64,000 nucleotides of DNA from Sinorhizobium terangae (GTDB lineage Bacteria; Pseudomonadota; Alphaproteobacteria; Rhizobiales; Rhizobiaceae). Where the stretch lies: assembly GCF_029714365.1 (NCBI RefSeq), contig NZ_CP121661.1, forward strand, positions 248,001-312,000. The letters run 5' to 3'. Position 1 is the stretch's first letter, and the number at the start of each line of letters is the position of its first letter. The translations under genes and the position numbers were made by a program. Positions 16,527 to 58,348 of this stretch are shown one piece after another. Under the pieces are notes generated by a model that made no database searches, was not told the DNA's origin, and saw only the letters and a program-made list of their open reading frames with translations.

Positions 16527-17024
16527 TCAGCTCAGCAGAACTCGGTGGTCAGCGCTTCGCACGAGGAGCGCGTATATCAGCGTGAACAGCCGGCGGGCGG
16601 TGTCGTTGTCGATGTTCACTTTCGCCGACAACCGGCTTTTCAGCAGTTCGGCAGCCTCGTTGTGGATGCCGCGCCGGCCCATGTCGATTGCTTCCAGCCG
16701 CTCAGGACCAGGGTGGCGGACGGCGTCATAGTAACTCTCGCAGATGCGGGTGTAGTCCTGTAGCAGCCGGCGGAAGGGGGTGAGCGACAGGTAGTGACTG
16801 ACGACGTGCTCGCCCGCATCGTCGGCAATATGCAGCACCATGCGCCCATCTACGGCTTCGATCTTGAGGCGATAAGGCCCGCCGTCGTGACCGACCGGCA
16901 TGAATGTGTTGCAATCTAGCAGGTCGATGATCGCGAGCGCCTGCTCTCGCTCAATGGTCGCGTCCCGGCCACCGAACGACCGATCGAGCGATACGTCGTA
17001 GAGACGGTACTCGGCCGAGGTCAT
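16527..17024 (-). CDS. UPF0262 family protein (copy 4, complete)
   Basis: 165 residues, the usual length. Motifs: [88 protein letters not shown] and [14 protein letters not shown]. Only 15 bp separate it from the thiolase stop, and glutamate dehydrogenase follows, so it is embedded in a ketone-body/amino-acid operon. All but its last 12 codons or so lie inside the inverted repeat. Function of the family is unknown. Confidence 0.93.
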
Positions 17025-17039
17025 GACCCTGCCCTCCCC

Positions 17040-18221
17040 TCACAGGGCTTCCACGCACATGGCGACACCCATGCCGCCGCCGATGCAGAGCGTCGCCAGT
17101 CCCTTCCTGGCGCCGCGGCGCTTCATTTCGAAGAGCAGTGTGTTGAGCACGCGGGCGCCGGAAGCACCGATCGGATGGCCGATGGCGATCGCGCCACCGT
17201 TGACGTTGACGATCGACGGATCCCAGCCGAGGTCCTTGTTGACCGCGCAGGCCTGGGCGGCGAAGGCCTCGTTGGCTTCGACCAGGTCGACATCGCCGAT
17301 CGCCCAGCCGGCTTTCGCCAGCGCCTTGCGCGAAGCCGAGATCGGGCCGGTGCCCATGACCTGCGGATCGACGCCGGCCGTTGCCCAGGAAACGATGCGG
17401 GCAAGCGGCTGGATGCCACGCCTGGAGGCCTGCGCCTCCGTCATCAGCAGGGTGGCGGCGGCGCCATCATTGAGGCCGGAGGCGTTGCCGGCGGTGACCG
17501 TACCCTCCTTGTCAAAAGCCGGGCGCAGCTTGGTCATCTGGTCGAGCGTTGCGCCATGGCGGATATATTCGTCCTGGTCGACGGTGACGTCGCCCTTGCG
17601 GGTCTTGACGACGAAGGGAATGATTTCCTCGGCGAAACGCCCAGCTTTCTGTGCAGCCTCGGCCTTGTTCTGCGAGGCGAGCGCGAAGGCGTCCTGCTCT
17701 TCGCGGCTGAGCTGCCACTGGCGGGCGACGTTCTCGGCGGTGATGCCCATATGGTAGCCGTGGAAGGCGTCGGTCAGGCCATCCTTGATCATCGTGTCAA
17801 TCATCTTGTAGTCGCCCATCTTCACCCCGCCGCGAAGATGCGCGCAATGCGGCGCCATCGACATCGACTCCATGCCGCCGGCAACGATGATGTCCGCATC
17901 GCCGGTGGCGATCTGCTGCATGCCGAGGGCGACCGCCCGGAGGCCGGAGCCGCAGAGCTGGTTCATGCCCCAGGCGGTTCTTTCCTGTGGGATCCCGGCC
18001 TTCATTGCCGCCTGGCGGGCCGGGTTCTGGCCTTCGCCGGCCTGCAGGACCTGGCCGAGGATCACCTCGTCCACCTCGCCGGCTTCGACGCCGACGCGCT
18101 CGAGCACGCCCTTGATGACGGCGGCGCCCAACTCGTGCGCGGGCGTGTTGCCGAACGCGCCGTTGAAGGTTCCGACCGCGGTACGTGCGGCGCTGGCGAT
18201 GACGATCGATGGGGTGCTCAT
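17040..18221 (-). CDS. atoB: acetyl-CoA acetyltransferase (thiolase), left copy
   Basis: 393 residues from ATG 18221, which follows AGAGGAGATCACT; an upstream in-frame start adds 20 unlikely residues. Catalyses reversible cleavage of acetoacetyl-CoA to two acetyl-CoA, or condensation for polyhydroxybutyrate synthesis (then called phbA). Catalytic residues are visible: Cys in [14 protein letters not shown], His in [15 protein letters not shown] and Cys in LCIGGGMG. It stands between CoA-transferase and UPF0262 genes on one strand. The translation is identical to the right copy. Confidence 0.96.
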
Positions 18222-18293
18222 AGTGATCTCCTCTCTTGTTCCTGCGAAGCCGACAGCGTGCCGGGTCCAGCGTCTCGGCAATAAGCCGAAGCC

Positions 18294-18923
18294 CTAGTTG
18301 ACGATGGTCGCCTCGGTGGCGCTGCGGATCTCGCCGTCGCTGACACCTTCGGCCAGCTCGACCAGCTTCAGCCCGCCCTCGACGACGTCGAGGACACCGA
18401 GATTGGTGATGATCCGATCGACGACGCTCTTACCCGTGAGCGGCAGGGTGCAGGCCTTCAGCACCTTGGACTCGCCTGCCTTGTTGGTGTGGTCCATGAC
18501 GACCACCACCCGCTTGACGCCGGCAACGAGATCCATCGCGCCACCCATGCCCTTGACGAGCTTGCCGGGGATCATCCAGTTGGCGAGATCGCCGTTTTCG
18601 GCAACTTCCATGGCACCGAGGATCGCCATGGCGATCTTGCCGCCGCGGATCATCGCAAAGCTCTGTGCCGAGTCGAAGAAGGCCGAATGCGGCAGCGCCG
18701 TCACCGTCTGCTTGCCGGCATTGATCAGATCGGCGTCAATCTGGTCTTCGGTCGGAAACGGGCCGATGCCAAGCAGGCCGTTCTCCGATTGCAGCGTCAC
18801 ATGCACGTCGTCCGGAATATAATTGGCGACCAGCGTCGGTATGCCGATGCCGAGATTGACGTAGGTGCCGTCTTCGAGTTCGCGGGCAGCGCGCGCCGCC
18901 ATCTGGTTTCTGTCCCAGGCCAT
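18294..18923 (-). CDS. scoB: 3-oxoacid CoA-transferase subunit B, left copy
   Basis: 209 residues. Transfers CoA from succinyl-CoA to acetoacetate together with subunit A. The active-site glutamate lies in [12 protein letters not shown] (about residue 51), and the [14 protein letters not shown] segment is typical. Starts 16 bp after scoA, with the upstream GGGGGAGACAC as ribosome site. Identical translation to the right copy. Confidence 0.95.
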
Positions 18924-18939
18924 GTGTCTCCCCCTGCCC

Positions 18940-19638
18940 TCAAGCCGCTGCGCGCACGGTGCGCTGCTCGATGCGTTTCTCGTGCTGACCCTGGATCAGA
19001 CGATGCACGTAGATCCCCGGCACATGTATCTGGTCAGGATCGAGGCTGCCGATCGGCACGATCTCCTCGACCTCGGCGACGCAGATCTTGCCGCAGGTGG
19101 CCGCCGGCGGATTGAAGTTGCGGGCCGTCTTACGGAAGACGAGGTTGCCGGATGTATCCGCCTTCCAGGCCTTGACGATCGAAAGATCGGCGACGATCCC
19201 GGTTTCGAGCACATAGATCTCGCCGTTAAAGATCTTCTGCTCCTTGCCCTCGGCAACGACGGTGCCGGCCCCGGTCTTCGTGTAGAAGCCGGCAATGCCG
19301 GCGCCGCCTGCACGCATGCGCTCGGCAAGCGTCCCCTGTGGGTTGAACTCCAGTTCGAGCTCGCCGCTAAGGTACTGCCTCATGAACTCGGCGTTCTCGC
19401 CGACATAAGACGAGATCATCTTCCTGATCTGCTTCGTCTTCAGCAGCACGCCAAGCCCGAAGTCGTCGACGCCGCAATTGTTCGATGCGATCGTCAGGTC
19501 TTTGGCGCCCGCCTCGCGGATGGCGTCGATCAACAGTTCCGGTATGCCGCAAAGGCCAAAACCGCCCGCGGCAATGAACATCCCGTCGAACAAAAGATGC
19601 TTAAGGGCAAAGCCCGCATTCACGTAAACCTTGTTCAT
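18940..19638 (-). CDS. scoA: 3-oxoacid CoA-transferase subunit A, left copy
   Basis: 232 residues. Contains the glycine-rich CoA-binding segment [16 protein letters not shown] near the N-terminus. The first 17 residues ([17 protein letters not shown]) differ from the right copy ([17 protein letters not shown]); from DGM onward the two are identical. No ATTCACRT motif is seen upstream, unlike the right copy. Confidence 0.95.
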
Positions 19639-20039: not shown

Positions 20040-20647
20040 GGGCCCAGGCTGTGTGAAAACGCCGGACATAATACCCTTTGACATGAGTCGAGGGGGGCTT
20101 CATGAAGCGGTATATCGAGGGTGTCGACAGGAGCCAGGGTACACTGCGTCCCGAGCAGTTGGATGACTGGGTGCATGAGGATAGCCCAGTTCGGGTGGTG
20201 GACGTCTTCGTTGATGAGATCGATCTGGCCGATCTCGGATTCGTGCGCTGTGAGCCAAGCAATACCTGGCGCCCAGGTTATCATCCCTCGATCCTGCTCA
20301 AGCTCTACATCTACGAACCGCATCCAGTCGAGCCGGCGTCTCGAACGCGAAGCTGGACGCAACATCGAGGTGATGTGGCTGGTTCGGCGTCTTGTCCCTG
20401 ACCATAAGACCATCGCCGATTTTCGACGCGATAACGGTGGTGCCATCAAGAAGGTCTGTACCGGCTTTGTGCTGCTGTGCCGCGAGATAGGGCTTCTCGC
20501 CAAGCCGAGTGTTGCGATCGACGGCAGCAAGTTCAAGGCGGTCAACAACCGAGGGCGCTCGAAGGCAAAACCGCCTACCATAACGCTTGAGCCACGTCAT
20601 ATCCCACAATTGGCCACGGCATTAGCGTTTTTACACAGCCAGGGTCC
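20040..20647 (+). mobile_element. IS1182-family relic with both terminal repeats
   Basis: The end GGCTGTGTGAAAACGC at 20047-20062 pairs with GGCTGTGTAAAAACGC read on the minus strand at 20625-20640, defining an element of about 0.6 kb. Inside, 20102-20580 encodes in shifted frames an IS1182/IS5-like transposase N-terminus (TLRPEQLDDWVHEDSPVR, DEIDLADLGF, then VAIDGSKFKAVNNR). Most of the catalytic region is deleted, so the element cannot move by itself. Confidence 0.8.
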
Positions 20648-20819
20648 CTTGCGGTCAGCATGAGATCCGCGCCGGGTTTGCCCAATAACAAAATCCTCGG
20701 GAGCATAACCATCCCACGACGGCCAATACTTCTATTTGGCTTACACTGAAGTAATCGCAGGTGAGATCTGAATTGTCGCACCTACCCACTACAAGCGTCC
20801 TGTCATCGCGGCTCATAAC

Positions 20820-22190
20820 ATGACTCTAACAGAAGATGTTTCCACCAAAGTCACTACGCTGACCTTTGACGCACTTCCTCAGCAGGTTCGCGACAAAGCC
20901 AAGCTTCTTGTTTTGGATCTGGTTGGCTGCATGATTGCGGGGAGCAGAACGCGCGGCGCGGTGCAGTTGATGCCCCACCTAACCTCTACCGACTCGGGTG
21001 GTAATTGCAGAGTGTTCGGCACGTCGCTGAAGTTCCATCCCGGCAACGCAGCCCACGCTAACGCCAATAACGCCAGCATGCTCACCCTTGATGACTCCTA
21101 TGTCCTTTTTGGTCACCCAGGCTCTTCTGTGATTCCGGCGGCTCTTGCAGTTGCCGAAGAGATCGACGCCTCAGGCAAGGATCTGATCACGGCTATTGTT
21201 GGCGGCTACGAAATGTCACTCCGATTGGGTGCCGCCATCAGGCCCAGTGAAAATCGCGATCGCGAGGTGAAGGGTCTCGGTACTTGGCAAATATTCGGGG
21301 CCTGCACTGCGGCAGGCCTATTGCATCGGTTCGATGCTGACCAGATGGCCGACGCTTACGGGCTTGTCCCAATGCATGCTCCGCTGCCGTTCCTGCGGAA
21401 GTTCCACTCGCGGCCAATGAGCCTTCTTAAAAACAACTACGGTTGGGCAAACAAAGGCGCGATCATGGCCGTAGATCTCGTCCGTACGGGGTTCCATGGC
21501 AACCGCACCATCTTCGATGGGGACGACGGGTTTTGGATAATGGCTGGCTCGGACCGTTTTGAGCCCGAGGAAATGCTTGGCCGTTGGGGCGAGCGATATT
21601 TTACCATTGAGACAGGCTTCAGAGCGTTTGGTGTGTGCCGATGGATACATACTTCAATCGATTCGCTTCGTTCGATACTGGCCCGCGACAAGTTCGACCG
21701 TCAGGACATTGAGCGGGTTCAAGTCGAAACCGTGTCTGAATTTGTACGTGACTTCAACGGTCCGTGGCCGGAGTCAACGATCGAGGCGGCGTTTCATATC
21801 CCTTATGCACTCGCGCTCGAGCTGCATGACAAGTCTTCCTCCACCGGGCTCCGGGAGGAAGACCTTGGAGATGAGGAATTAAAGAAAACCGCAACGAAGA
21901 TCAGGCTCTCTACGCTGAACCATGCCGATGACAAATTTTACTCGAAAAAGCTGCTGCCGGCTCGTGTAACCGTCATCCTTAAAAACGGTGAGACTCTATC
22001 TGCCGAGGCAGAGATTCCGACCGGAGCCCCGGGTGGTCCGGCTTTTGGTCAAGCTGAGGTCGAAGCCAAGTTTCTTACCCTGGCGACACCGCACATAGGT
22101 CAATCAAACGCAAATCATCTGATGGAAGCGCTCCTTAAGTTGGAGGCTCTCTCCGTGCGCGAAGCATTGCAATTCTGCGCGACACCCTGA
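20820..22190 (+). CDS. MmgE/PrpD-family protein (2-methylcitrate dehydratase-like)
   Basis: 456 residues with MmgE/PrpD features along the whole length: KLLVLDLVGCMIAGSRTRG near the N-terminus, HANANNASMLTLDDSY, and the YTGP-like AFHIPYALALEL region in the C-terminal part. Relatives dehydrate 2-methylcitrate, isomerise itaconate-type acids or have unknown substrates, so the reaction is open. It is followed after about 80 bp by a class III aminotransferase gene on the same strand, hinting at one amino-acid or dicarboxylate pathway. Start taken at ATG 20820. Confidence 0.85.
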   Translation: MTLTEDVSTKVTTLTFDALPQQVRDKAKLLVLDLVGCMIAGSRTRGAVQLMPHLTSTDSGGNCRVFGTSLKFHPGNAAHANANNASMLTLDDSYVLFGHPGSSVIPAALAVAEEIDASGKDLITAIVGGYEMSLRLGAAIRPSENRDREVKGLGTWQIFGACTAAGLLHRFDADQMADAYGLVPMHAPLPFLRKFHSRPMSLLKNNYGWANKGAIMAVDLVRTGFHGNRTIFDGDDGFWIMAGSDRFEPEEMLGRWGERYFTIETGFRAFGVCRWIHTSIDSLRSILARDKFDRQDIERVQVETVSEFVRDFNGPWPESTIEAAFHIPYALALELHDKSSSTGLREEDLGDEELKKTATKIRLSTLNHADDKFYSKKLLPARVTVILKNGETLSAEAEIPTGAPGGPAFGQAEVEAKFLTLATPHIGQSNANHLMEALLKLEALSVREALQFCATP

Positions 22191-22205
22191 TGGCACCGAA
22201 CATGC
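22191..22205 (+). promoter_or_regulatory. possible sigma-54 promoter before the aminotransferase
   Basis: TGGCACCGAACATGC has GG and GC 10 bases apart and matches TGGCAC-N5-TTGC except at one base. It sits about 65 bp before the aminotransferase start. No activator site was identified. Confidence 0.35.
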
Positions 22206-22268
22206 GCACCGCCATCACCGTCGCACGCCGACTTCGAAATTACCTCAATAATCAGGATCAGGTCATAA

Positions 22269-23640
22269 ATGTCGACTCAAAGCACCGAGCCCAAACTCGA
22301 TCAAAGGGAACCTTCAGGAAGCGCTTTTTACGCCGGTCGCGGCGTTAGCCAAACGCCAATGATTACGCACGCGAAGGGCATTTTTTCTGGGACACAGAAG
22401 GAAAGCGCTATCTCGACGGATCTTCTGGAGCGGTCGCCGCGAATATCGGCCACGGGAACGAGCGTGTGCGTGACGCAATGATGGAGCAGGCCAGTCGATT
22501 CAGTTACGTGGTCCGCACAGCTTTCACCAGCGAGGCGACCGAAACCCTTTGCAAGATGGTAGCGGATCTTGCCGGGCTGGGTTTTGATCAAACGTTTCTT
22601 GTTTCGGGTGGCTCTGAGGCCATTGAGGCCACTTTAAAGCTCGCTCGCCAATATGCTGTCGTGACCGGCCAACCGAAACGGTCCAAGATCCTTGCGCGAC
22701 TGCCAGGCTACCATGGGTCCACGATGGGTGCCGCTGCTGTCACGGGGGATCCTGACCGCGACGAGATGTTCGGACCGATGATGCGGATCATGCCAAAGGT
22801 CCCAGCACCATTGAGCTACCGCATTCCTGAAGGCTTCGATGTCGACTCCTATGCTGACTACTGCGCCAATGAACTTGAACGACAAATTCTCGCGGAGGGT
22901 GAGGACACCGTCTTGGCCTTCATCATGGAGCCGGTTGGCGGCGTTGCGACCGGCGCGCTAGTCGCTCCGGATCATTACTACAAGAAAGTGCGGGAGATCT
23001 GCGATCGGTATGGTGTGTTACTGATTTTTGATGAGGTGATGTGTGGCGCGGGTCGGACGGGCACCTTCTTGGCTGCTCATCACTGGCCAAATGCCCTGCC
23101 GGATCTTGTAGCCTGCGCGAAGGGATTGAGTGCAGGCTATACACCGCTCGGCGCCATGATTGCGCCGAACAGGATCGTCGACAAGGTGGTTGAATCAGGC
23201 GGCTTTCTGCACGGTCACACATATTCCGGCAACCCCTTTCGTCGGCGATCGGTGTCGCGGTTCTCAGGGAATTGGTAGATCAAGACCTAATGACGAATGC
23301 AGAGCGAATGGGGAACCTCCTGCGGCATAAGCTAACCGTGTTGAAGGATCGGACTAATACAATTGGCGACGTGCGAGGATTGGGTCTGCTGAATGCCGTG
23401 GAGATCGTCGAGGACAAGGCGACGAAGGCAATTTTTCCGGCGTCCAGCCAAGCCTCTTACCGAGTTTCAGCGATCGCCCGCGATCTCGGCCTACATATTT
23501 ATGGACGCCGCGCCGCGAGCGGAAAATTCGGCGAGTGGTTCATGGCAGCTCCTCCGCTCATCATAGCCGAAGACGAAATCGACCTCTTCATGGAACTGCT
23601 TACAGAGACGTTCCGCATTTTTGAGAGTGAGATCCGATGA
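22269..23640 (+). pseudogene. class III (PLP) aminotransferase with two frameshifts
   Basis: Three consecutive frames together make one complete class III aminotransferase of about 455 residues. Frame 1 ends after MITHAKGIF, where six T stand instead of the seven needed to read IFFWDTEGKRYLDG. Frame 2 carries the PLP region (LVSGGSEAIEATL, GYHGSTMG, LLIFDEVMCGAGRTG, CAKGLSAGYTPLG with the likely PLP lysine) and ends at about 23237, where one C is missing in AACCCCTTTCG. Frame 3 completes the C-terminus to the stop at 23640. Substrate unknown. Both breaks are one-base losses in homopolymers, so sequencing error is possible. Confidence 0.85.
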
Positions 23641-23883
23641 GCGGTGCTAGCACCTATTGTCGGCTCAGACACCCTCAACAATCCGGCCTAGATATCCAGG
23701 AGAAACTTCCCGTGAATACGATGAACCGCGCGGGCGGTATTGCGCTGGACAATGATCTGCTAGGAGCAGCAACGCGATGGCGCCGGGATCGAGCGTTCTC
23801 CCGCGCGCTTATTGCCATCTTTCAGCCAATGTCAAGCGAAACGACGAATTGACCCCTTTGCCGAATTGAAGAACCGGCCCCCT

Positions 23884-24620: not shown

Positions 24621-25534
24621 TTCGAGCGTGCTGAATCTCATGCTCACCGGCCAACAGCGGTCCGCTGTGGGAGGCGGCGCGGGTTATTGTCTGTCTATTG
24701 AAGTTCGAAGGGGCCATTCCGGGTCGCATCAGCCAAGCCTGTGGCGCGAAAGGCTGCGAACACGCGATGCGGGCACCGACTTGATCAGCAGCCACCCGAG
24801 CGAGCCGTCGTCTACCGCGAGTTGCGGCGCAGCTGGTCACCGCCGAGAAAGGACCACCGCTGATTATAACGCGCAGCCTAACAGGCAGATCGTCGCGCAG
24901 ACCGACCGATGAGTGCTGCCACTGGCCGGTCAGCCGCACCAAGCCGCTGTCTGATATCGTCCTCGACGCAAATAGCGATGTCGATCACGTCAGAAAATCG
25001 AGCTAAGGCAACGGCAACATCGGCCTGAGCCTCATCCAGGGACCGAGGCGGGCACCCCTTCGACAGTGAAACGGGTCGCGCCTCCATGCTGGAACGCGAC
25101 TATGTTTTTGCTACGGCACGCGGACGCGCCAGGCAATCGCCCCTGACACTCGATTCTTTCGCAACTTCAGGAACTCCCGGGTGGGTAGCAACCCGTCGCG
25201 ACAATTTGCCAAAGGCCGCCATATCTATCCAGCTAGGCTCAGGGTGCGGCATCGGATAAGGAAGCAATTATACACAGGAGCAGATTGCGATCTGGAAAGA
25301 GACAAGACCTAATTTTTAGGAATTGGGAAGAATCGTCAATTTCTTTGGGCATTTGTTCACTTCTGTTTTGCATCAATCGAATCAGAGATGCTGTAAATTT
25401 CTAATTTCGAACGCGCATTTACGTAGGAAGATTGAATCTTCACGGAGATGTAAAAATAATTCGCAGAACATTCAAACCACGTCTTAGCAACAGCTTGTAT
25501 CATGCTCCGACAACCAAGTGGCTGGAGCAAAGCA
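24621..25534. other. region upstream of the NRPS-PKS gene, no supported gene
   Basis: About 0.9 kb. The left half holds short unassigned frames. The last 300 bp (from about 25240) is markedly AT-rich compared with its surroundings and presumably carries the NRPS-PKS promoter. I searched by eye for a nod box and a tts box and saw neither. Confidence 0.4.
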
Positions 25535-28500
25535 ATGGATTATGTTACGCGTCCGTTGTCGTATGGGCAGATGGGCCTTTGGCTGCATCATCAAAAGAGG
25601 CCGACCGGCAGCGAATACAACCTGCCGGTCGAGCTGAGCATAAAGGCAACGTTCAACCGTACTGCCTTGCGTCGAGCGCTTCAGCTTTTGATTGATCGCC
25701 ACAAGATGCTGCGCACAACCTTTCACCAGGAAGGCGGACGCGTCGTTCAGCGCATCCACGAGACAGTCACCTTGAGCTTGGAAGTCGTTCCGCTGCAGAG
25801 TGTCAACGAGCCCGATTTCCAGCAATCTATTGCTGCGGAAGCTCGCGCCCCTTTCGATCTGGAACAGGGGCCGGTATTTCGCGCGCACCTGTTCATTCGC
25901 AGTGCCGCGGAAGAAATCCTCCTCCTTAATTTCCATCACATCATTTCTGACGCTTATAGCATCCGCACCTTTCTGCATGAGTTCGGCAGGCTCTATCAGG
26001 CGTGTTGTGGCAACACGGAGATGCCAAGGCTGGCTGCTGCGGCTTCCTACGATGACTTCGTAGCTTGGCAGGAAGGCCACCTCGCCGGTAACGACGGAGA
26101 ACGTATGTGGGCCTACTGGCGCGGCCACTTTGTCGATCACGAGCCCGACCTCACCCTTCCCACAGACAGGCCACGAGCTGCGCTCGCGACGCACACTGGA
26201 TCAGTTTTCTCCTTGGATTTTAAGATGCCGCTGGTCGCGCGATTGGAGCGACTTGCACACAAGGAAAAAGTGACGCTCGCTACCGTCCTGCTCGCTGCCT
26301 ATTACGTCCTGCTGCATCGCTATAGTGACCAGGACGTCATCACCCTGTACATGCCACGCCTCGGTCGTCCGACAGAAATTTTTTCGGGGACTTTCGGCTA
26401 CTTTGTGGCCATGGGCGCTCTACGGCAGGGTCTTTCCGGAAATCCCGTCTTCCTCGACCACCTGCAACAAGTGCGTCAGCTGATGCGCTGCGCGCGCAAG
26501 CACGAGCATTTTCCTCTTCCCCTGCTGGTGGAGAGACTTAAGCTCCCCAGCGTATCTGGTCGCAATCCACTCGCGCAAGCGGTTTTCAACTTCACTCCGG
26601 AGGCGGTAAGCTCTCTTGGCTTCAGGCGATGCGACGTCGATCTCTCTGGCTTGCCTGCACAAATCCGATTTTGCGAGACCGAAATCTGGATTGATCTTGA
26701 TTTCCGAATCCTCGCCGGAGAAGAAGGTCTCCGCCTTGACGTGGTATACAATGCTGCGTTGTGGGATAGCAGCACCATTGAGCAACTGGCGAAGCACTAT
26801 TGTGTGCTGCTCGAGGCGATTGCAGATGCACCAACGCGACGGGTAGGCGACTATAGACTTCTGTCGCCGGAGGAAGAGCACCAGATTCTAATGGATTGGA
26901 ACGAGACGGCTGAACCTTTCCCGTCCGATATTTGCTTTCACAACCTGATCGAAGCGCAGGCTGCCACTTACCCACATAATATCGCTGTGAGCTGCTCATC
27001 GGAAGCGCTCACCTATGCCGCGCTTGAGGAAAGGGCAAACAGGATTGCCCATCATCTGATTTCAAAAGGTGTCCGCCTCGGAGACGTCGTCGGCATTCTC
27101 GTTGAGCGTTCGTGCGATCTCATTGTCAGCTTTCTAGGGGTTTTGAAAGCGGGGGCCGTCTATCTCCCTCTCGATCCGCACGTCCCAGCCCAGCGCCTGC
27201 GCTTCATTGTGCGAGACGCTGGTGCCACTGCCGTCATCACCAAGACGGAGCTTGCAGAACTGCCTTTTGGGAAAGACCAATCAGAACTGAACCCTAAAGG
27301 TGCGAATAGATGCGCGTTGGTTCTCCTTGACAAGGACGAGGCGGAGATTTCTCTGCATGACGTAACGCCTCCGCACTGCCCCGCCGGCCCCTCGGATTTG
27401 GCTTATGTAATCTACACGTCAGGTTCCACGGGTAAGCCGAAAGGCGTGATGGTTGAACATCGCAGCGCCTGCAATATGGCGGAGGATCTAAGGCGGACCT
27501 ATCAACTGATGCCAGATAGCCGAGTACTGCAGTTCGCTTCCTGCGGATTTGATGCATCGCTCTTTGATTTCATGTTAGCCCTATCTTCTGGCGGTCAATT
27601 GTGTATGGCGCCCCCATCAGCGTCGCTGCCGGGGGCAGAACTTGTCGAGTTCATGCGCCGTGAGCGCATCACCGCTGCCGGCCTTACTCCGACAGCGTGG
27701 ACCACCTTGCCGTCGACTGACCTTCCTGATCTCACCACAATCAAGTCAGGTGGAGAGCCCTTGCCGTCGAGCCTCATCGAGCGATGGGGTGAGAACCGCC
27801 GTATTTTCAATTCCTATGGGCCCACAGAAACGACCGTTTATTGCATACGAACAGAGGTGAAGGGTAATGGACAGAAACCGCCAATCGGGCGGCCCGCGAT
27901 CAACACCCAGGCCTACATTCTCGATCGGTACGGCAGTCCGGTACCGGTTGGCGCTGCCGGTGAACTTTACATCGGTGGAGTCGGCGTTGCTCGCGGCTAC
28001 CTCAACCACGACGAACTCACACGCGAACTTTTCCGACCAAACCCGTTCGATGATAAACCTCAATCCAGGCTATACAGGACGGGGGATCGGGCCCGGTATC
28101 GGAGAGACGGCTCGATTGAGTTCTTGGGGCGGAAGGACGAACAGGTCAAGATCCGCGGCATGCGTGTTGAACTTGCTGAAATTGAACAGTGCCTGATGGA
28201 GCACGAAAACGTCGAGGCGTGCTGCGTTACGCTGAGAGACCATCCCAATGAAAATACAAACCTTACAGCCTATGTGGTGAGCCGAAGCGAGGCGTCGGAA
28301 AATGCCGACGATCTTCAGGCCTTTCTGCGCGCCCTGATGCCAAGCCACATGATCCCATCGCAATTCGTATTCCTCCCGCAGATACCGACCAACCGCAGCG
28401 GCAAGATCGATAGGCGCGCTCTTCCTGAGCCGAGAGGCACCTCCAGATCAAAAACGCCGATCTTAGCCTCGAGCAGACTGCAGACGGAACTGGCTGACAT

Positions 28501-43715: not shown

Positions 43716-43737
43716 TAAGGCAACTGAACCCGGGAAA

Positions 43738-45551: not shown

Positions 45552-45572
45552 ATTGCAGGTGGATATGTGAAT
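45552..45572 (-). promoter_or_regulatory. ATTCACRT motif between lcdH and LysR
   Basis: The minus strand begins ATTCACATATCCACC. It lies about 177-197 bp upstream of lcdH and directly before the LysR start, so it could serve both genes. Confidence 0.45.
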
Positions 45573-46900: not shown

Positions 46901-47785
46901 ATGAATCGCGAACCCTTCATTACTTGCGCCGTAACAGGCGGAGGCGACTTCGCAGCTAAAAGCCCACATGTACCGGTCACGCCCTTGGAAATCGCAGATA
47001 GCGCGCTCGAGGCGCATGAAGCGGGCGCGGCCATTGTTCATCTTCATGTCCGCGATCCAGAAACCCGACTTGGTAGCCGGGATATCGGACTCTATCGAGA
47101 ACTCGTCACGATAATCCGTGAGCGCAACAAGGACGTGATCATCAACCTTACTGGCGGGATGGGAGGTGAGATCCTGTTCGGCTCGGCAAGCTCCCCAATT
47201 CCTCTGGCCGTCGGAACGGACTTCGTCGGTCCGACCCAGCGTATGGAACACATCCTGGAGCTGAAGCCGGAAATCGCCAGTCTCGACACCGGGTCTTTGA
47301 ACTTCGACGACTCGCTCTATGCAACAACACCTACGTGGTTGCGGGAAATGGCGGATAGCTACAAGGAAGCCTCTGTTCTTCCTGAGATCGAAGTTTTCGA
47401 GCTTGGCCACATTGAGCTGGCAAAGCAGCTGATCAAGGAAGAGCGTATTTCACGGCCGCCACTCTTCCAGCTTTGTCTCGGAATCAAGTATGGCGCCCCC
47501 GCTACGCCGGACGCGATGATGGCAATGCGAAACGCCTTGCCGTCCAATGCCACCTGGGCGGGGTTTGGCCTGGGCGCCATGCAGCTGCCGATGGCCGCTC
47601 AAGCGGTGCTCATGGGCGGGAACATCAGAGTCGGCCTTGAAGATAACCTTTACCTGGAACGCGGCGTCCTCGCAACAAATGCGCAGCTGGTTGCCAAGGC
47701 TCGCCAGATCGCCGAGGCGATGGGGGCAAGAATTCGCTCTGCCTTGGAGACGCGGACGTTGCTCAACCTGCAGCCTCGCGGATAA
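46901..47785 (+). CDS. cdhC: BKACE enzyme (DUF849), 3-dehydrocarnitine cleavage type
   Basis: 294 residues from ATG 46901 (an upstream ATG adds 14 residues without a ribosome site). Beta-keto acid cleavage enzymes use zinc to swap a beta-keto acid with acetyl-CoA. Seen: the zinc histidines in IVHLHVRDPETRLGS (about residues 45-59), NLTGGMGG, PEIEVFELGHI and the terminal VGLEDNLYL. With 3-dehydrocarnitine the products are betainyl-CoA and acetoacetate. The neighbours (carnitine dehydrogenase, thioesterase, 3-hydroxybutyrate dehydrogenase, CoA-transferase) fit that reaction. Confidence 0.88.
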   Translation: MNREPFITCAVTGGGDFAAKSPHVPVTPLEIADSALEAHEAGAAIVHLHVRDPETRLGSRDIGLYRELVTIIRERNKDVIINLTGGMGGEILFGSASSPIPLAVGTDFVGPTQRMEHILELKPEIASLDTGSLNFDDSLYATTPTWLREMADSYKEASVLPEIEVFELGHIELAKQLIKEERISRPPLFQLCLGIKYGAPATPDAMMAMRNALPSNATWAGFGLGAMQLPMAAQAVLMGGNIRVGLEDNLYLERGVLATNAQLVAKARQIAEAMGARIRSALETRTLLNLQPRG

Positions 47786-47803
47786 AACCCATAATGAACG
47801 GAG

Positions 47804-47836
47804 GGCGTTGCGGCCGGGCAAAGGCCGCAACGCCCG
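47804..47836 (+). terminator. hairpin terminator after BKACE gene
   Basis: GGCGTTGCGGCC, a 7-base loop and GGCCGCAACGCC make a perfect 12-bp stem 19 bp past the stop. The T tract is weak. It may also stop the convergent 3-hydroxybutyrate dehydrogenase transcript. Confidence 0.75.
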
Positions 47837-47937
47837 TTGAATAGCAGAGCGGATTTGCTATGCGCCGCAAGTCCGACGCAACCCTATCGTGGTTGCGGCA
47901 CCGCGTTGCAGGGCGATCGCACCGGGTGCGACCGCTT

Positions 47938-48735
47938 TCAGACCACTAAGCTCCCGCCGTCGATCGGAAGGGCAATGCCGGTAATCGACTTGGCAGCGTC
48001 GCTGCAGAGGAACAGAACGCCGGCCGCGATTTCGTCCGTTTCCACGAAACGGCGGGTGGGCATATCCGTCAGAAAATAGTTCCGGGCAGCTTCGGCAAAA
48101 GAATATTGAAGCTCCGCAGCCTTCGCCTCGACCTGCTTCGCGACCAACGGCGTTAACACCCACGCCGGGCAAACGGCATTGCACGTGATACCAAGCTGAG
48201 CCCCCTCGAGAGCAATCTCTCTCGTCAAGCCAAGTATGCCATGCTTGGTCGCCACATAGCCGGATTTGCGCGCTTCCGCGGTGAACGAGAGGGTCGAAGC
48301 TGTGTTGACGATTCGCCCCCAGCCACGCTCTTTCATCTGGGGCCAGACCGCTCTTGTCGTGCAGAAAGCTGCAGTCAGATTGATCGCGAGAAGGCGCTGC
48401 CATTGCTCGTCCGGGAACTCCTCAATATCTGCCAAGTGCTGGGCACCGGCATTGTTGACCAGGATGTCTACTCTGCCGAGCTCGGCGGTGACAGCCCCAA
48501 CCAGATCGCTTGCTTGCTTGAGGTTTGACAGGTCGTGACCGAAATGCTTCGCTTGGCGCCCAGTCTCCTTGCAGATGTCGTTATTGATCGCTGCAATCTC
48601 TTCTGAAGACGCGAAGCCGTTCAATGCCACATCGGCCCCATTGGCAGCCAGCATCCGAGCAATTGCCAATCCGATGCCGCTTGTTGATCCGGTTACCAAA
48701 GCGACCTTGCCCTGAAGTGGTACGGAGATGTTCAT
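47938..48735 (-). CDS. bdhA: 3-hydroxybutyrate dehydrogenase (SDR)
   Basis: 265 residues. The short-chain dehydrogenase motifs TGSTSGIG (about 16-23), NNAGAQH and the catalytic YVATK are all present, and the LGITCNAVCPAWVLTPLV and LPIDGGSLVV segments are typical of D-3-hydroxybutyrate dehydrogenases. It interconverts 3-hydroxybutyrate and acetoacetate, linking to the CoA-transferase and thiolase. Convergent with the BKACE gene and divergent from the double-MBL gene. Confidence 0.92.
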   Translation of the reverse strand: MNISVPLQGKVALVTGSTSGIGLAIARMLAANGADVALNGFASSEEIAAINNDICKETGRQAKHFGHDLSNLKQASDLVGAVTAELGRVDILVNNAGAQHLADIEEFPDEQWQRLLAINLTAAFCTTRAVWPQMKERGWGRIVNTASTLSFTAEARKSGYVATKHGILGLTREIALEGAQLGITCNAVCPAWVLTPLVAKQVEAKAAELQYSFAEAARNYFLTDMPTRRFVETDEIAAGVLFLCSDAAKSITGIALPIDGGSLVV

Positions 48736-51439: not shown

Positions 51440-52240
51440 GTGGACCCAAGCTCGACATTGCCGCGAGAGCAATTACTCGAAGTTCGCAATCTACACAAGT
51501 CGTTTGGTCCTGTGGAGGTGCTGAGAGGTGTTAGCATCGACGCCGCGAAGGGCGATATTGTCACACTGATCGGCCCTTCGGGTTCGGGTAAAAGCACCCT
51601 GCTGCGGTGTCTGAATTTTCTGGAGAAGCCGTCCTCTGGAGCCGTGGTTCTGGGTGGCGAACGCTTTGAGGCGCAGGAATTCTTAAAGCCCAATCGCGCG
51701 GCGCGCGCCCGACTGATTGCCCTTCGGCGGCGCGTTGGTATGGTGTTTCAATCGTTCAATTTGTGGCCCCATCGCAGCGCCCTCGGAAATGTCATGGAGG
51801 GGCCGCTGCAAGTGTTGCACGCCTCGCGTGCCGACGCGGAGGAGCGTGCAATGGCGCTCTTGGCGCGGGTTGGGCTTGCCGAGCGGGCCCATGCATATCC
51901 GGGTCAACTTTCCGGCGGCCAGCAGCAGCGGGTCGCAATTGCGAGAATGCTCGCAACAGAACCGGAAGTGCTGTTGTTCGATGAACCGACGTCAGCGCTC
52001 GATCCTGAGCTTGTGGGCGAGGTTTTGAGCGTTATGCAGTCGCTGGCTCAAGAGGGCCGCACCATGCTGGTCGTCACTCATGAGATCGCGTTCGCGCGGG
52101 ATGTCGCGAACAAAGTCATCTTCATGAGTAAGGGTGCAATCCGGGAGGAGGGCTCACCGGACGAAGTTCTACGCGGCACGAGGTCAGAGGAACTTCAAAG
52201 CTTCCTCAGTCGGTTCCGTCGCGACGATGTCCCGCTGTGA
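51440..52240 (+). CDS. ABC importer ATPase, polar amino acid type
   Basis: 266 residues with a GTG start after AAGGGGAATGAT. Walker A GPSGSGKST (near 50), Q-loop VFQSFNLWPH, signature LSGGQQQR, Walker B VLLFDEPTSALD and switch histidine VTHE are all intact. First of four collinear genes; the next gene begins within 70 bp. The proteins resemble PAAT-family systems, so the substrate may be an amino acid or a betaine-like compound. Confidence 0.95.
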   Translation: MDPSSTLPREQLLEVRNLHKSFGPVEVLRGVSIDAAKGDIVTLIGPSGSGKSTLLRCLNFLEKPSSGAVVLGGERFEAQEFLKPNRAARARLIALRRRVGMVFQSFNLWPHRSALGNVMEGPLQVLHASRADAEERAMALLARVGLAERAHAYPGQLSGGQQQRVAIARMLATEPEVLLFDEPTSALDPELVGEVLSVMQSLAQEGRTMLVVTHEIAFARDVANKVIFMSKGAIREEGSPDEVLRGTRSEELQSFLSRFRRDDVPL

Positions 52241-52309
52241 ATGACAGGGGAGCGTGATGCGCCAACGCAAACAGGTGCAATAACTACCAACGAAAGAGGG
52301 AACAAAACA

Positions 52310-53089
52310 ATGAGTACTCCACGTCGCTCGGTACTTCTAGCCACTGCTGCGCTAACCTTGGCATCTGCACTTCCCGCCTTGGCCCAGGAGAAAGTCGTCG
52401 TAGGTTTTGATGGGTCTTACCCACCATTTGCATCCGTCGGCACCGACGGGGAGCTGAAGGGTTTTGACGTCGATCTCGTCAAGTCGATCTGCGCCAGTGA
52501 AAAACTGCAGTGCGACCTTCGTAATGTGCCGTTCGATGGCATCTTTGCTGCACTCGAAGCCGGCAAGATTGACGTGATTGCCGCCGGCATGGCTATCACC
52601 GAAGAGCGAAAGAAAAAGTATGCGATGCCGGGGCCGTATCTCAAAAGTCCGCTTGTTTATATGGCTTTGACAGCCTCGACCGTTGACGGCACCACGAATA
52701 CCTTAACCGGCAAGACGGTCGGCACGGTCGCCGGCAGCGTTCTTGAAAAGTATCTGAACGAGAACATGGCATCTGTTGTTCAAGTGAATACATACGATAG
52801 TATGGACGCGGCAGTCTTGGACCTGGACTCGGGGCGCTTGGATGCCGTGTTGGGTGAGTTGGCGCAGCTGCAGCCTGCCTATATTCAAGTCAAGTCCGAC
52901 GCGTATAAGATTGCCGGAGAGCCAATTTTCGACGCGAAATATGCCGGCCTCGGCAAGGGACTTATCATACGTCTTGACGATAAATCTCTCGCAAAGTCGT
53001 TCGACGATGGGCTTGCAACCCTAATCGCCAACGGCACCCACGCTCAACTCACGAAGAAGTGGTTTGGGGTTGAAATGCCGGCGAATTGA
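52310..53089 (+). CDS. ABC importer periplasmic substrate-binding protein
   Basis: 259 residues from ATG 52310 (AAAGAGGGAAC upstream). A signal peptide with LLATAALTLASALPALAQ is followed by the family-3 solute-binding fold (VVVGFDGSYPPFASVGTDGE, GFDVDLVKSICASE, VPFDGIFAALEAGKIDVIAA). The position in the operon and the shared control block with the carnitine island make a carnitine, betaine or amino-acid ligand possible, but the ligand cannot be read off. Confidence 0.93.
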   Translation: MSTPRRSVLLATAALTLASALPALAQEKVVVGFDGSYPPFASVGTDGELKGFDVDLVKSICASEKLQCDLRNVPFDGIFAALEAGKIDVIAAGMAITEERKKKYAMPGPYLKSPLVYMALTASTVDGTTNTLTGKTVGTVAGSVLEKYLNENMASVVQVNTYDSMDAAVLDLDSGRLDAVLGELAQLQPAYIQVKSDAYKIAGEPIFDAKYAGLGKGLIIRLDDKSLAKSFDDGLATLIANGTHAQLTKKWFGVEMPAN

Positions 53090-53110
53090 CCGGGTCTTCG
53101 GAGATCTGCC

Positions 53111-53803
53111 ATGACCGCAACTCTTCCCTATCTGGGCTTTATCATCGAAGGACTGACGGTGACAATTGGCACAACGCTCGCGATCTTTGTGGGCGCTATG
53201 CTTATCGGCGCGGTAGTTGCTTTGAGCAACACCAGTGAGAAAGGCGTGCTCGTAGTTCTTGCACGGGGATATATCACGCTTTTTCGCGCCTTGCCGGAGC
53301 TTCTTTGTATCTTCATCGTCTACTACGGATCTGATGTTGCGTTGCGTGTCATGGCAGCACGCTTTGGCACCCCCTATCCGGATGTGTCACCATTTGCTGC
53401 CGTTGCGTTTGCACTCGGTATTCAATTCGGAGCCTATTGCGCCGAAATCTTCGGGGATGCACGTAGGGCGATTCCCCAAGGATTGATCGAGGCGGCTGAA
53501 GCGTTGGGTCTCGAACCGGGGCAAGTCGTAAGACGCGTGACCCTTCCGCTGATGTTCATGAATGCGACACCAGCGCTCGGAAATCTGTTTCTCGTTGTCC
53601 TGAAAGTCTCAGCGCTTGCTTCCGCAATCGGCCTCGAAGAGGTTACCAGGCGCGCCAAGATCGTCGCTGGGACAACGAGGGAGCCGTTTGCGCCTTATGC
53701 GATCGCTGCCGTGTGCTTCCTCGTTATTACTGCGATCGCTGGATTGTTGCAATCTTATCTCGAGCAGCGTTCACGGTTCGGCCGGAGCCTTGTAAGATCA
53801 TGA
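53111..53803 (+). CDS. ABC importer permease 1 (HisM/HisQ type)
   Basis: 230 residues with five or so hydrophobic segments and the EAA loop near IPQGLIEAAEALGLEPGQVV. Starts 19 bp after the binding-protein stop with GGAGATCTGCC upstream. Its stop overlaps the start of permease 2. Confidence 0.92.
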   Translation: MTATLPYLGFIIEGLTVTIGTTLAIFVGAMLIGAVVALSNTSEKGVLVVLARGYITLFRALPELLCIFIVYYGSDVALRVMAARFGTPYPDVSPFAAVAFALGIQFGAYCAEIFGDARRAIPQGLIEAAEALGLEPGQVVRRVTLPLMFMNATPALGNLFLVVLKVSALASAIGLEEVTRRAKIVAGTTREPFAPYAIAAVCFLVITAIAGLLQSYLEQRSRFGRSLVRS

Positions 53804-54549
53804 TGACTGAACTCCTATTGTCGACTGACCTTTGGCTGGCGATTCTCCGCGGGCTACAAGTTACCATTCTCATAACCGTTCTATCGGTGACAATCGGGCT
53901 CGTTGGTGGAATCGGGCTGGCCCTGCTTCGGCAGTTCGGTGGACCGATGGCTCGCGCGCTCGCGTTCCTCTACATCTTCCTGTTCAGGGGAGTGCCGTTG
54001 CTGATCCTCCTTTATTTTCTGTACTACGGTGTGCCGCAGCTTTCGATATTGCGTAATGGTCCGCTGTGGACTTATGTCTTCAGTTCGCCGTTCGTCACGT
54101 GTCTGCTTGCCTTTAGCTTGAATAATGCCGCCTACTTGGCGGAGGTGGTTCGCGGCGGCATTCTTGCGATCAAGCCTGGCGAAATCGAAGCGGGGTACGC
54201 GCTCGGATTGTCGGGTCCAAGGGTTGTTAGGCGCATAATCCTGCCCCTTTCTCTGCGAAATTGCCTAGGAGGAATCGCAAATGAGACGATTTTCACGATT
54301 AAGGCGTCGGCAATCGCGAGCGTCATCACGGTTCGGGACCTCCTTGGCGAAGCGCAGCGTTTCGGAACTGCGTTTTCCGACAACATCACCCCACTCATTG
54401 CCGCCGGGCTCGTCTACGTGCTGCTTGTCCAGTTCGTGGAATGGGGTACACGGTTCTTGCGAGCTCACTTGCACGGCGTTAGCCGCCCTGCGATCAAGGC
54501 CGCCAGTTCGTCCCCCGTGGAGGCAGTATCTACAAATCGCAGCATCTAA
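53800..54549 (+). CDS. ABC importer permease 2 (HisM/HisQ type)
   Basis: 249 residues from ATG 53800, overlapping the previous stop (ATGA). EAA loop: IKPGEIEAGYALGLSGPRVV. Hydrophobic segments as in permease 1, with which it would form the membrane channel. A longer frame from 53713 lies inside permease 1 and is not used. Confidence 0.92.
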   Translation: MMTELLLSTDLWLAILRGLQVTILITVLSVTIGLVGGIGLALLRQFGGPMARALAFLYIFLFRGVPLLILLYFLYYGVPQLSILRNGPLWTYVFSSPFVTCLLAFSLNNAAYLAEVVRGGILAIKPGEIEAGYALGLSGPRVVRRIILPLSLRNCLGGIANETIFTIKASAIASVITVRDLLGEAQRFGTAFSDNITPLIAAGLVYVLLVQFVEWGTRFLRAHLHGVSRPAIKAASSSPVEAVSTNRSI

Positions 54550-55020: not shown

Positions 55021-55719
55021 GTGAACAAGATTTTTTCCAATCCCCGCTCGGTGCTTGAAGGCTTGCTGTCTGACGGGATGTTCATTGCCGCGGGCGGTTT
55101 TGGCCTTTGCGGCATACCGGAACTGTTGATCGACGCCATCCGCGAGGCGGGCGCCAAAGACCTGACGATCGCATCGAACAATTGCGGCGTCGACGACTTC
55201 GGGCTTGGCGTGCTGCTGAAGACGAAGCAGATCAGGAAGATGATCTCGTCTTATGTCGGCGAGAACGCCGAGTTCATGAGGCAGTACCTTAGCGGCGAGC
55301 TCGAACTGGAGTTCAACCCACAGGGGACGCTTGCCGAGCGCATGCGTGCAGGCGGCGCCGGCATTGCCGGCTTCTACACGAAGACCGGGGCCGGCACCGT
55401 CGTTGCCGAGGGCAAGGAGCAGAAGATCTTTAACGGCGAGATCTATGTGCTCGAAACCGGGATCGTCGCCGATCTTTCGATCGTCAAGGCCTGGAAGGCG
55501 GATACATCCGGCAACCTCGTCTTCCGTAAGACGGCCCGCAACTTCAATCCGCCGGCGGCCACCTGCGGCAAGATCTGCGTCGCCGAGGTCGAGGAGATCG
55601 TGCCGATCGGCAGCCTCGATCCTGACCAGATACATGTGCCGGGGATCTACGTGCATCGTCTGATCCAGGGTCAGCACGAGAAACGCATCGAGCAGCGCAC
55701 CGTGCGCGCAGCGGCTTGA
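55021..55719 (+). CDS. scoA: 3-oxoacid CoA-transferase subunit A, right copy (chimeric 5' end)
   Basis: 232 residues with a GTG start after GGAGGAGTAGTGAC. Residues 1-17 ([17 protein letters not shown]) are homologous to but clearly different from the left copy; from [17 protein letters not shown] onward the two are identical at nucleotide level. The breakpoint is at 55072. This suggests a resident scoA whose body was replaced by the left-hand version through recombination inside the gene. Confidence 0.95.
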
Positions 55720-55735
55720 GGGCAGGGGGAGACAC

Positions 55736-56365
55736 ATGGCCTGGGACAGAAACCAGATGGCGGCGCGCGCTGCCCGCGAACTCGAAGACGGCACCTACGT
55801 CAATCTCGGCATCGGCATACCGACGCTGGTCGCCAATTATATTCCGGACGACGTGCATGTGACGCTGCAATCGGAGAACGGCCTGCTTGGCATCGGCCCG
55901 TTTCCGACCGAAGACCAGATTGACGCCGATCTGATCAATGCCGGCAAGCAGACGGTGACGGCGCTGCCGCATTCGGCCTTCTTCGACTCGGCACAGAGCT
56001 TTGCGATGATCCGCGGCGGCAAGATCGCCATGGCGATCCTCGGTGCCATGGAAGTTGCCGAAAACGGCGATCTCGCCAACTGGATGATCCCCGGCAAGCT
56101 CGTCAAGGGCATGGGTGGCGCGATGGATCTCGTTGCCGGCGTCAAGCGGGTGGTGGTCGTCATGGACCACACCAACAAGGCAGGCGAGTCCAAGGTGCTG
56201 AAGGCCTGCACCCTGCCGCTCACGGGTAAGAGCGTCGTCGATCGGATCATCACCAATCTCGGTGTCCTCGACGTCGTCGAGGGCGGGCTGAAGCTGGTCG
56301 AGCTGGCCGAAGGTGTCAGCGACGGCGAGATCCGCAGCGCCACCGAGGCGACCATCGTCAACTAG
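55736..56365 (+). CDS. scoB: 3-oxoacid CoA-transferase subunit B, right copy
   Basis: Translation identical to the left copy (209 residues, active-site glutamate in [12 protein letters not shown]). Follows scoA after 16 bp. Within the repeat, so it cannot be told apart from the left copy by short reads. Confidence 0.95.
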
Positions 56366-56437
56366 GGCTTCGGCTTATTGCCGAGACGCTGGACCCGGCA
56401 CGCTGTCGGCTTCGCAGGAACAAGAGAGGAGATCACT

Positions 56438-57619
56438 ATGAGCACCCCATCGATCGTCATCGCCAGCGCCGCACGTACCGCGGTCGGAACCTTCAACGGC
56501 GCGTTCGGCAACACGCCCGCGCACGAGTTGGGCGCCGCCGTCATCAAGGGCGTGCTCGAGCGCGTCGGCGTCGAAGCCGGCGAGGTGGACGAGGTGATCC
56601 TCGGCCAGGTCCTGCAGGCCGGCGAAGGCCAGAACCCGGCCCGCCAGGCGGCAATGAAGGCCGGGATCCCACAGGAAAGAACCGCCTGGGGCATGAACCA
56701 GCTCTGCGGCTCCGGCCTCCGGGCGGTCGCCCTCGGCATGCAGCAGATCGCCACCGGCGATGCGGACATCATCGTTGCCGGCGGCATGGAGTCGATGTCG
56801 ATGGCGCCGCATTGCGCGCATCTTCGCGGCGGGGTGAAGATGGGCGACTACAAGATGATTGACACGATGATCAAGGATGGCCTGACCGACGCCTTCCACG
56901 GCTACCATATGGGCATCACCGCCGAGAACGTCGCCCGCCAGTGGCAGCTCAGCCGCGAAGAGCAGGACGCCTTCGCGCTCGCCTCGCAGAACAAGGCCGA
57001 GGCTGCACAGAAAGCTGGGCGTTTCGCCGAGGAAATCATTCCCTTCGTCGTCAAGACCCGCAAGGGCGACGTCACCGTCGACCAGGACGAATATATCCGC
57101 CATGGCGCAACGCTCGACCAGATGACCAAGCTGCGCCCGGCTTTTGACAAGGAGGGTACGGTCACCGCCGGCAACGCCTCCGGCCTCAATGATGGCGCCG
57201 CCGCCACCCTGCTGATGACGGAGGCGCAGGCCTCCAGGCGTGGCATCCAGCCGCTTGCCCGCATCGTTTCCTGGGCAACGGCCGGCGTCGATCCGCAGGT
57301 CATGGGCACCGGCCCGATCTCGGCTTCGCGCAAGGCGCTGGCGAAAGCCGGCTGGGCGATCGGCGATGTCGACCTGGTCGAAGCCAACGAGGCCTTCGCC
57401 GCCCAGGCCTGCGCGGTCAACAAGGACCTCGGCTGGGATCCGTCGATCGTCAACGTCAACGGTGGCGCGATCGCCATCGGCCATCCGATCGGTGCTTCCG
57501 GCGCCCGCGTGCTCAACACACTGCTCTTCGAAATGAAGCGCCGCGGCGCCAGGAAGGGACTGGCGACGCTCTGCATCGGCGGCGGCATGGGTGTCGCCAT
57601 GTGCGTGGAAGCCCTGTGA
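56438..57619 (+). CDS. atoB: acetyl-CoA acetyltransferase (thiolase), right copy
   Basis: Identical to the left copy (393 residues, ATG 56438 after AGAGGAGATCACT; catalytic Cys, His and Cys all present). In this position it would finish carnitine-derived acetoacetate breakdown to acetyl-CoA under control of the island's own promoter. Confidence 0.95.
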
Positions 57620-57634
57620 GGGGAGGGCAGGGTC

Positions 57635-58348
57635 ATGACCTCGGCCGAGTACCGTCTCTACGACGTATCGCTCGATCGGTCGTTCGGTGGCCGGGACGCG
57701 ACCATTGAGCGAGAGCAGGCGCTCGCGATCATCGACCTGCTAGATTGCAACACATTCATGCCGGTCGGTCACGACGGCGGGCCTTATCGCCTCAAGATCG
57801 AAGCCGTAGATGGGCGCATGGTGCTGCATATTGCCGACGATGCGGGCGAGCACGTCGTCAGTCACTACCTGTCGCTCACCCCCTTCCGCCGGCTGCTACA
57901 GGACTACACCCGCATCTGCGAGAGTTACTATGACGCCGTCCGCCACCCTGGTCCTGAGCGGCTGGAAGCAATCGACATGGGCCGGCGCGGCATCCACAAC
58001 GAGGCTGCCGAACTGCTGAAAAGCCGGTTGTCGGCGAAAGTGAACATCGACAACGACACCGCCCGCCGGCTGTTCACGCTGATATACGCGCTCCTCGGCA
58101 GCGCGGCATTGCCGCCCGCGACTCCAAGGCCGGGCGCGGGGAGTTCCGTTTTATGCTGCCTCCGGGCTTCTGCTGGAGCGAGGCGGGCAAGATCGAGATC
58201 GATCCGGACGAGCATGTGGCTGAGACGATCCGGCTTGTCTTCGCCAAATTCCGCGAGCTGGGGAGCGCCCGACAGGTCTTCCTGTGGCTACGGTCGGCCG
58301 GTATCAAGATGCCTGTCGTCTTGCGCAACGTCGAGATCTGCAAGCTGA
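57635..58348 (+). pseudogene. UPF0262 family protein (copy 5), 3' end replaced
   Basis: Identical to copy 4 up to LFTLIYALL (58097), missing only the last dozen or so native codons. The frame then reads 83 codons out of frame into the recombinase relic to a stop at 58348. The UPF0262 core is complete, so a 237-residue protein with a foreign tail may still fold. Confidence 0.85.

Follow-up and report, generated by a model that had tools for sequence, protein, structure and literature searches.

The nearest published analogue that we encountered to the locus described here is the flip/flop region of Saccharomyces chromosome XIV, where homogenized, gene-bearing inverted repeats of 4 kb cause recurrent inversion, the 24-kb region having been re-inverted in evolution (PMC9731477). 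In Rhizobium etli, the nifH reiterations of the symbiotic plasmid are reported to undergo gene conversion, crossover, and rearrangement (PMC10932983 and PMC8223754), and concerted evolution has been described for the bacterial tuf and rRNA genes, with tracts of a few hundred nucleotides reported for protein genes (PMC8223754). Here, we report two interleaved inverted pairs of catabolic gene cassettes, pair A and pair B, on a plasmid of Sinorhizobium terangae (RefSeq assembly GCF_029714365.1; genome, 6.63 Mb in three contigs, 99.97% complete). The stretch analyzed (C3:248001-312000; 64,000 nucleotides, hereafter the window) belongs to contig C3 (NZ_CP121661.1, 566 kb), which is identified as the symbiosis plasmid by its full-length NodA and NifH matches. 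Positions refer to the window unless they are prefixed with C3. NodA has two full-length matches on this contig (C3:499770-500351 and C3:509943-510524), plus two partial ones.

The Sinorhizobium pairs resemble the yeast region in that repeats are homogenized within strains and copies cluster by genome (PMC9731477). They differ from it in that the yeast region occurs in both orientations among strains, whereas here a bacterial plasmid carries two interleaved pairs, with an apparent between-species inversion at pair B only. With the nifH reiterations they share the setting of repeated genes on a rhizobial symbiosis plasmid; recombination between nifH copies is described there as producing a large deletion, whereas here inverted catabolic operons bear homogenized tracts of ~3 kb. 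As with tuf and rRNA genes, paralogues are closer within a genome than their history predicts, but here the whole 3-kb homology is identical (compare PMC8223754). Conversion with repeat-mediated inversion is an already known process; the interleaved pairs and their recurrence are new here. A literature search on these cassettes and processes on rhizobial plasmids, with most subscription journals outside its reach, gave no title or opening of an abstract about these cassettes among the matches listed. Rearrangements in Rhizobium plasmids are said to have been predicted by Flores and colleagues, about 2000.

Pair A and its origin

The left arm (A) and the right arm (A') of the first pair had been noticed in a preliminary description as an inverted repeat of 3 kb, collinear at constant p+q=74659, and base-by-base alignment bore this out with 0 mismatches in 3026 bp, the arms being exact reverse complements (Table 1). 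Mismatches set in at once beyond both ends. A repeat finder stretches the pair to 3031 bp. Chance is excluded as the origin of the identity. The assembly holds two full copies of the arm, one chromosomal relative of its thiolase part (85%), and 10 shorter or weaker matches. Self-comparison of C3 at ≥95% identity returned three repeat pairs, namely, pair A, a 2.98-kb inverted pair (pair B), and a 1.5-kb direct pair, the two longest of which consist of metabolic genes.

Each arm carries a UPF0262-thiolase-scoB-scoA operon transcribed outward from the 35-kb middle that separates the arms, and family function predicts that it would convert acetoacetate to acetyl-CoA. The arms had been described as scoA-scoB-atoB sets; those genes are present, but the arms include UPF0262 as well, with one edge within scoA and the other near the end of UPF0262. 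On the scoA side, the edge lies 51 nt inside the gene in both copies, in frame after codon 17, and the left and right scoA proteins are 95.28% identical over 233 aligned positions (11 differences, all at the start, and all outside the arm because the arms are identical). On the other side, the left UPF0262 gene is complete, with a dehydrogenase gene (gdh) beginning 42 nt further on. In the right copy, UPF0262 is fused to what is left of a serine recombinase, which starts at residue 134 of 683 at the arm edge. Gene direction places the promoters of both operons, together with codons 1-17 of scoA, within the 35-kb middle.

We consider it probable (roughly 0.8) that pair A represents old paralogous operons, gdh linked on the left and carnitine linked on the right, which were homogenized by gene conversion. 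Homologous recombination, by way of RecA, would recently have copied one operon over the other without exchange of flanks, and the copied tract would have reached the limits of usable homology, set by the diverged first 17 codons of scoA and by the truncation of the right UPF0262 gene. Identity, edges, contexts, and recurrence are all matters of observation for pair A. Three features of the edges argue for conversion: the flanks at both ends of the mismatch-free tract are diverged or unrelated, two different but homologous scoA N-termini join the tract at the same in-frame 51-nt offset, and the edge of the right arm coincides with the point of fusion between UPF0262 and the recombinase.

In loci retrieved from relatives, the operon stands in two contexts, each found in more than one genus. 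In one, which is common on rhizobial plasmids, it is linked to gdh, often with aldehyde dehydrogenase and aminotransferase genes upstream; in the other, it is linked to carnitine-type genes and directly follows an ABC transporter (R. gallicum M101, S. garamanticum, Sinorhizobium sp. 8-89, E. adhaerens E-60, and R. giardinii). The label "carnitine" reflects gene order and family likeness, the dehydrogenase scoring below curated NCBIfam cutoffs. The left arm has the gdh-linked context: its outer flank is common to S. chiapasense (90% over 3.5 kb), and its linkage is that of S. numidicum, in which the operon lies between gdh and the region upstream of the next cassette; two intervening genes are missing here. 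The right arm has the carnitine-linked context, and the catabolic genes there have 81-93% protein identity to those of 8-89. Judged by context, the duplication of the operon is older than the divergence of the genomes compared. In plasmids at large, 31 of 72,556 records contain a single locus that spans 80% or more of the arm (89.6% identity to the arm for the closest among the plasmid matches listed), and arm matches of at least 2.7 kb occur in 8 of 33 Sinorhizobium genomes, twice in two of these. Another genome of the same species (G032) had no full-length A copy among the matches listed and no match to B.

A second case of conversion is suggested by sequence comparison in R. gallicum M101, whose plasmid pRGM101a has a gdh-linked and a carnitine-linked sco operon (289771-292879 and 337257-340362) as direct repeats ~44 kb apart, an arrangement in which recombination would delete the intervening segment. 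These copies are 97-100% identical in ten 300-nt bins inside the tract and 66% identical over the final 50 nt preceding the tract, where scoA begins; there are 0 differences across the first ~1.07 kb, and one scoB accession serves both. Outside the tract, the carnitine-side scoA start is 84% identical to that of R. giardinii and 82% identical to that of S. garamanticum, both of them carnitine-side copies. The pattern of the window is repeated at the scoA-side edge only.

A tree was built from 27 copies selected from the retrieved loci (1187 columns spanning scoA and the greater part of scoB, without the thiolase). Within-genome grouping is seen in the window (identical), in M101 (100/100), and in 8-89 (99/98) and weakly in S. 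garamanticum (86/36), and a single clade of carnitine-linked copies was rejected (approximately unbiased [AU] test, p-AU 4.3e-5). Paralogues are more alike within a genome than orthologues are between genomes, save in R. giardinii, where this fails, and in S. garamanticum, where it holds weakly. Gene conversion, raised in the preliminary description as one source of the identity, is supported by M101 and by this tree, in which three two-copy genomes have their copies together, one more does so weakly, and another does not.

Conversion probably ran from left over right, as is suggested mainly by the UPF0262 part. At sites separating gdh-type from carnitine-type copies in three reference sets, UPF0262 of the window is gdh-like by 15:5, 19:5, and 57:12, the last in a set biased to gdh, in which the lone carnitine copy's private changes were scored as carnitine type. 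That bias weighs against the proposed conversion and its direction, as do several other points. For scoA, scoB, and atoB, one of the three reference sets gives a mixed or reversed donor signal (9:7, 5:6, and 9:16), and the right scoA start (50-nt bin) is nearest to a gdh-type copy (G022, 78%; carnitine copy of 8-89, 68%). The two copies of R. giardinii do not pair in the tree, and the AU test placed no constraint on the identical window pair, so its result depends on the other genomes. The copies of M101 stay alike past UPF0262 (93, 100, and 88% in the next bins), where gdh or a gdh remnant is found. Finally, protein identity to 8-89 is only 44-68% for the ABC transporter next to the right arm, against 81-93% for the catabolic genes, so the right context is not wholly orthologous. 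Searches for the origin of this transporter were unfruitful, and plasmid searches with the two scoA upstream regions gave no match for one and two short matches for the other.

A few bases in a fast-changing stretch account for the resemblance between the right N-terminus and gdh-type copies, which lends no support to a flank swap. A swap of the A flanks relative to single-copy operons was itself considered and rejected, the scoA start lying on the inner side.

A recent segmental duplication, in which the left operon was copied once, inverted, into the carnitine island with no older right copy, would sit well with the total identity of the arms and with a right junction that is possibly recent, the transporter there differing from the one found with this island in a relative. 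We find it improbable, given that carnitine-linked copies exist in five other genomes, that M101 has the same scoA-side edge (not the same UPF0262-side edge), and that the scoA genes start at the same codon offset with N-termini that are different yet homologous, which illegitimate insertion would not yield.

Some features near pair A recall mobile elements: the right arm is adjoined by the recombinase remnant and, farther out, by IS66 and IS110 genes, and a transposase remnant lies beyond the left arm. That the arms belong to a composite transposon or another mobile element is nevertheless scarcely credible, since their content is metabolic genes only, with the 31 plasmid records noted above, their edges fall inside genes at homologous codons, and the recombinase, which has lost residues 1-133, abuts one arm only. 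Composite-transposon arms were accordingly dropped as a candidate on the grounds of metabolic content and edges within genes; target-site duplications were not searched for.

Pair B and inversion

Pair B comprises an MmgE/PrpD gene and a class III aminotransferase gene, with one arm in the window and its partner beyond it. The 2.98-kb copies differ solely by two 1-nt indels (a T run and a C run; window 22381 and 23233), which may be sequencing errors, and the frameshift that they cause in the left aminotransferase may mark either a pseudogene or an error. These homopolymer indels hint at residual sequencing error and are what could be said for an assembly artefact at pair A, with one of its arms duplicated by the assembler. 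We regard this as very unlikely, given a nearly complete assembly in three contigs, distinct flanks at all ends, and like identity on plasmids of other species recorded as complete.

Near-full-length B was found in 5 of 33 Sinorhizobium genomes, twice in 4 of those. Copies within a genome are 100% identical bar indels (window, S. chiapasense, and S. mexicanum) or 99.25% identical (S. numidicum), compared with 72-92% between species, and both copies have the same protein accessions in S. chiapasense and S. mexicanum (in S. numidicum, for the aminotransferase only). Because both downstream contexts, on the nonribosomal peptide synthetase-polyketide synthase (NRPS-PKS) side and on the M20 peptidase side, are common to the window and S. 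numidicum, the duplication of B predates their split, and its identity reflects concerted evolution. A duplication older than the divergence holds for B between these two only; the pairs of S. chiapasense and S. mexicanum could possibly stem from independent recent duplication. On S. mexicanum NZ_CP041240.1, we also recorded an inverted ~4.5-kb pair (MmgE, aminotransferase, and amidohydrolase; 239623-244087 and 254243-258707), 100% identical and ~10 kb apart.

The B interval (C3:271789-335255) appears to be inverted between the window and S. numidicum, with both breakpoints in the B repeats. As the far flank is weak, the comparison, made against S. numidicum only, amounts to three flanks and the interior. 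The near flank (gdh-A side) matches the S. numidicum plasmid in plus orientation (200 kb compared), and the gdh-A-operon flank with its 137-nt upstream region stands at the M20-side B copy in S. numidicum and at the NRPS-side copy in the window. Between the B copies, 15 of 18 matches of at least 300 bp are minus (19,925 bp minus versus 2,086 bp plus), and the rank correlation is -0.65 (p 0.004). The plus matches include 1,117 bp at IS66 genes and one 969-bp match that is unexplained; among the minus matches, IS66 accounts for 440 bp, and there are some repeated fragments. The far flank gave one 336-bp plus match only; it falls in the nifH region, to which the S. numidicum plasmid has a further match elsewhere. 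Two S. numidicum records share the same arrangement and are apparently type-strain deposits (LMG 27395 and CIP 109850), not independent of each other (title of PMC10281163). Pair B indicates that crossovers between homogenized repeats have occurred on these plasmids.

Inversion of the 35-kb middle of pair A (19588-55071), suggested in the preliminary description, is plausible in that crossovers at the A arms could bring it about, but no swap is visible there: the flanks of both arms look unrearranged compared with relatives, and the right arm adjoins the carnitine-type island. An active switch, with the middle flipping in the living population and changing which promoter reads into UPF0262-gdh, would be compatible with conversion. 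Perfect inverted repeats of 3 kb suffice amply for homologous recombination, and pair B on the same plasmid is inverted between species; set against these are left-arm flanks that retain the S. numidicum linkage, the absence of a second A orientation in the loci examined, and the broken state of the recombinase beside the right arm. On balance, we think such a switch rather unlikely. The remnant, being broken, is not a likely agent of inversion, and site-specific inversion was rejected as a candidate, this adjacent recombinase being interrupted and without residues 1-133. No intact dedicated recombinase was found near the arms among the proteins scanned, which were not all of the open reading frames, and recognition sites were not searched for.

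The accompanying idea of a promoter swap holds insofar as the promoters lie on the inner side and would move with the middle. The arm genes being identical, only downstream targets would change; inversion would alter which promoter reads the full UPF0262 gene and gdh and which reads the truncated UPF0262 gene and the recombinase remnant.

Interleaved geometry

The repeats follow one another on C3 in the order A, B, A', B'. In this geometry, a flip of the B interval would turn A and A' into direct repeats, and a flip of the A interval would do the same to B and B'; direct repeats permit deletion. We offer tentatively, as a possibility with somewhat more against it than for it, that each of these pairs is maintained by conversion and invertible and that the region may alternate between invertible and deletable states. 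If this is true, recurrent homogenization of catabolic cassettes in several Sinorhizobium species would be a standing source of rearrangement in the vicinity of the NRPS-PKS and the carnitine-type genes.

The two cassettes, found in several species, suggest that ordinary catabolic operons, and not only nif genes, insertion sequence elements, and rRNA operons, can be held identical on rhizobial symbiosis plasmids and that such operon pairs can act as inversion points. Trees of these gene copies call for caution, as they mirror conversion as well as descent. The pairs are ready sites for measuring inversion rates on a symbiosis plasmid.

Features of the window

Table 1. Coordinates of the repeat arms, their genes, and neighboring features (window positions unless prefixed with C3)
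Feature	Position	Strand	Basis or remark
Left arm (A): UPF0262, thiolase, scoB, scoA from codon 18	16562..19587	-	0/3026 mismatches to right arm; Pfam
Right arm (A'): same genes, rightward	55072..58097	+	Identity to left arm
scoA, left copy; first 17 codons (19588-19638) outside arm	18940..19638	-	TIGR02429 above cutoff; own N-terminus
scoB, left copy	18294..18923	-	PF01144
Acetyl-CoA acetyltransferase (atoB-like thiolase), left copy	17040..18281	-	PF00108/PF02803; TIGR01930 above cutoff
UPF0262 gene, left copy, full length	16527..17024	-	PF06793, profile positions 3-152 of 153
Glu/Leu/Phe/Val dehydrogenase (gdh), downstream of left operon and of many relatives' operons	15039..16484	-	PF00208/PF02812; same place in relatives
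scoA, right copy (GTG start)	55021..55719	+	First 17 codons differ, same 51-nt offset as left copy
scoB and thiolase, right copy	55736..57619	+	Identical to left copy
UPF0262, right copy, shortened, in-frame fusion to recombinase remnant	57635..58097	+	Sequence comparison
Large serine recombinase remnant; residues 1-133 of 683 missing, remainder interrupted by gaps and a stop	58096..59682	+	tblastn with S. fredii GR64 protein
Transposase remnant (DUF772), between left arm and cassette B	20121..20663	+	PF05598
Region upstream of cassette B; its homologue precedes the gdh-side copy in S. numidicum	20685..20819	+	137 aligned nt, 79%; local score 123
Arm B: MmgE/PrpD gene and class III aminotransferase (frameshifted here)	20808..23788 (C3:268808-271788)	+	Self-comparison
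Partner of arm B, beyond window, inverted	C3:335256-338238		
NRPS-PKS, inside both A and B intervals	25502..32578	+	
Two ATP-grasp ligase genes	39264..41651	+	
Carnitine-type genes: two LysR regulators, thioesterase, 3HCDH-family dehydrogenase, BKACE, 3-hydroxybutyrate dehydrogenase-like	42314..48735		From thioesterase on, order as in Sinorhizobium sp. 8-89
Amino-acid-type ABC transporter, directly upstream of right operon	51440..54549	+	

A search of the 64-kb window for RNA families and tRNAs found none. Between the carnitine-type genes and the transporter lies a gene for a 623-amino-acid protein with two metallo-beta-lactamase-fold stretches (49196-51067), unmatched in the 8-89 locus. UPF0262 is a family of unknown function, for which no PDB relative was found by sequence (E up to 1); three more UPF0262 loci, one of them broken, lie beside the left arm (11669-15014) and have 47-69% protein identity to the left-arm copy. 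An AraC-type regulator likewise has a second, partial copy (9233-9763 and 12723-13544), with DNA pieces 72-86% identical.

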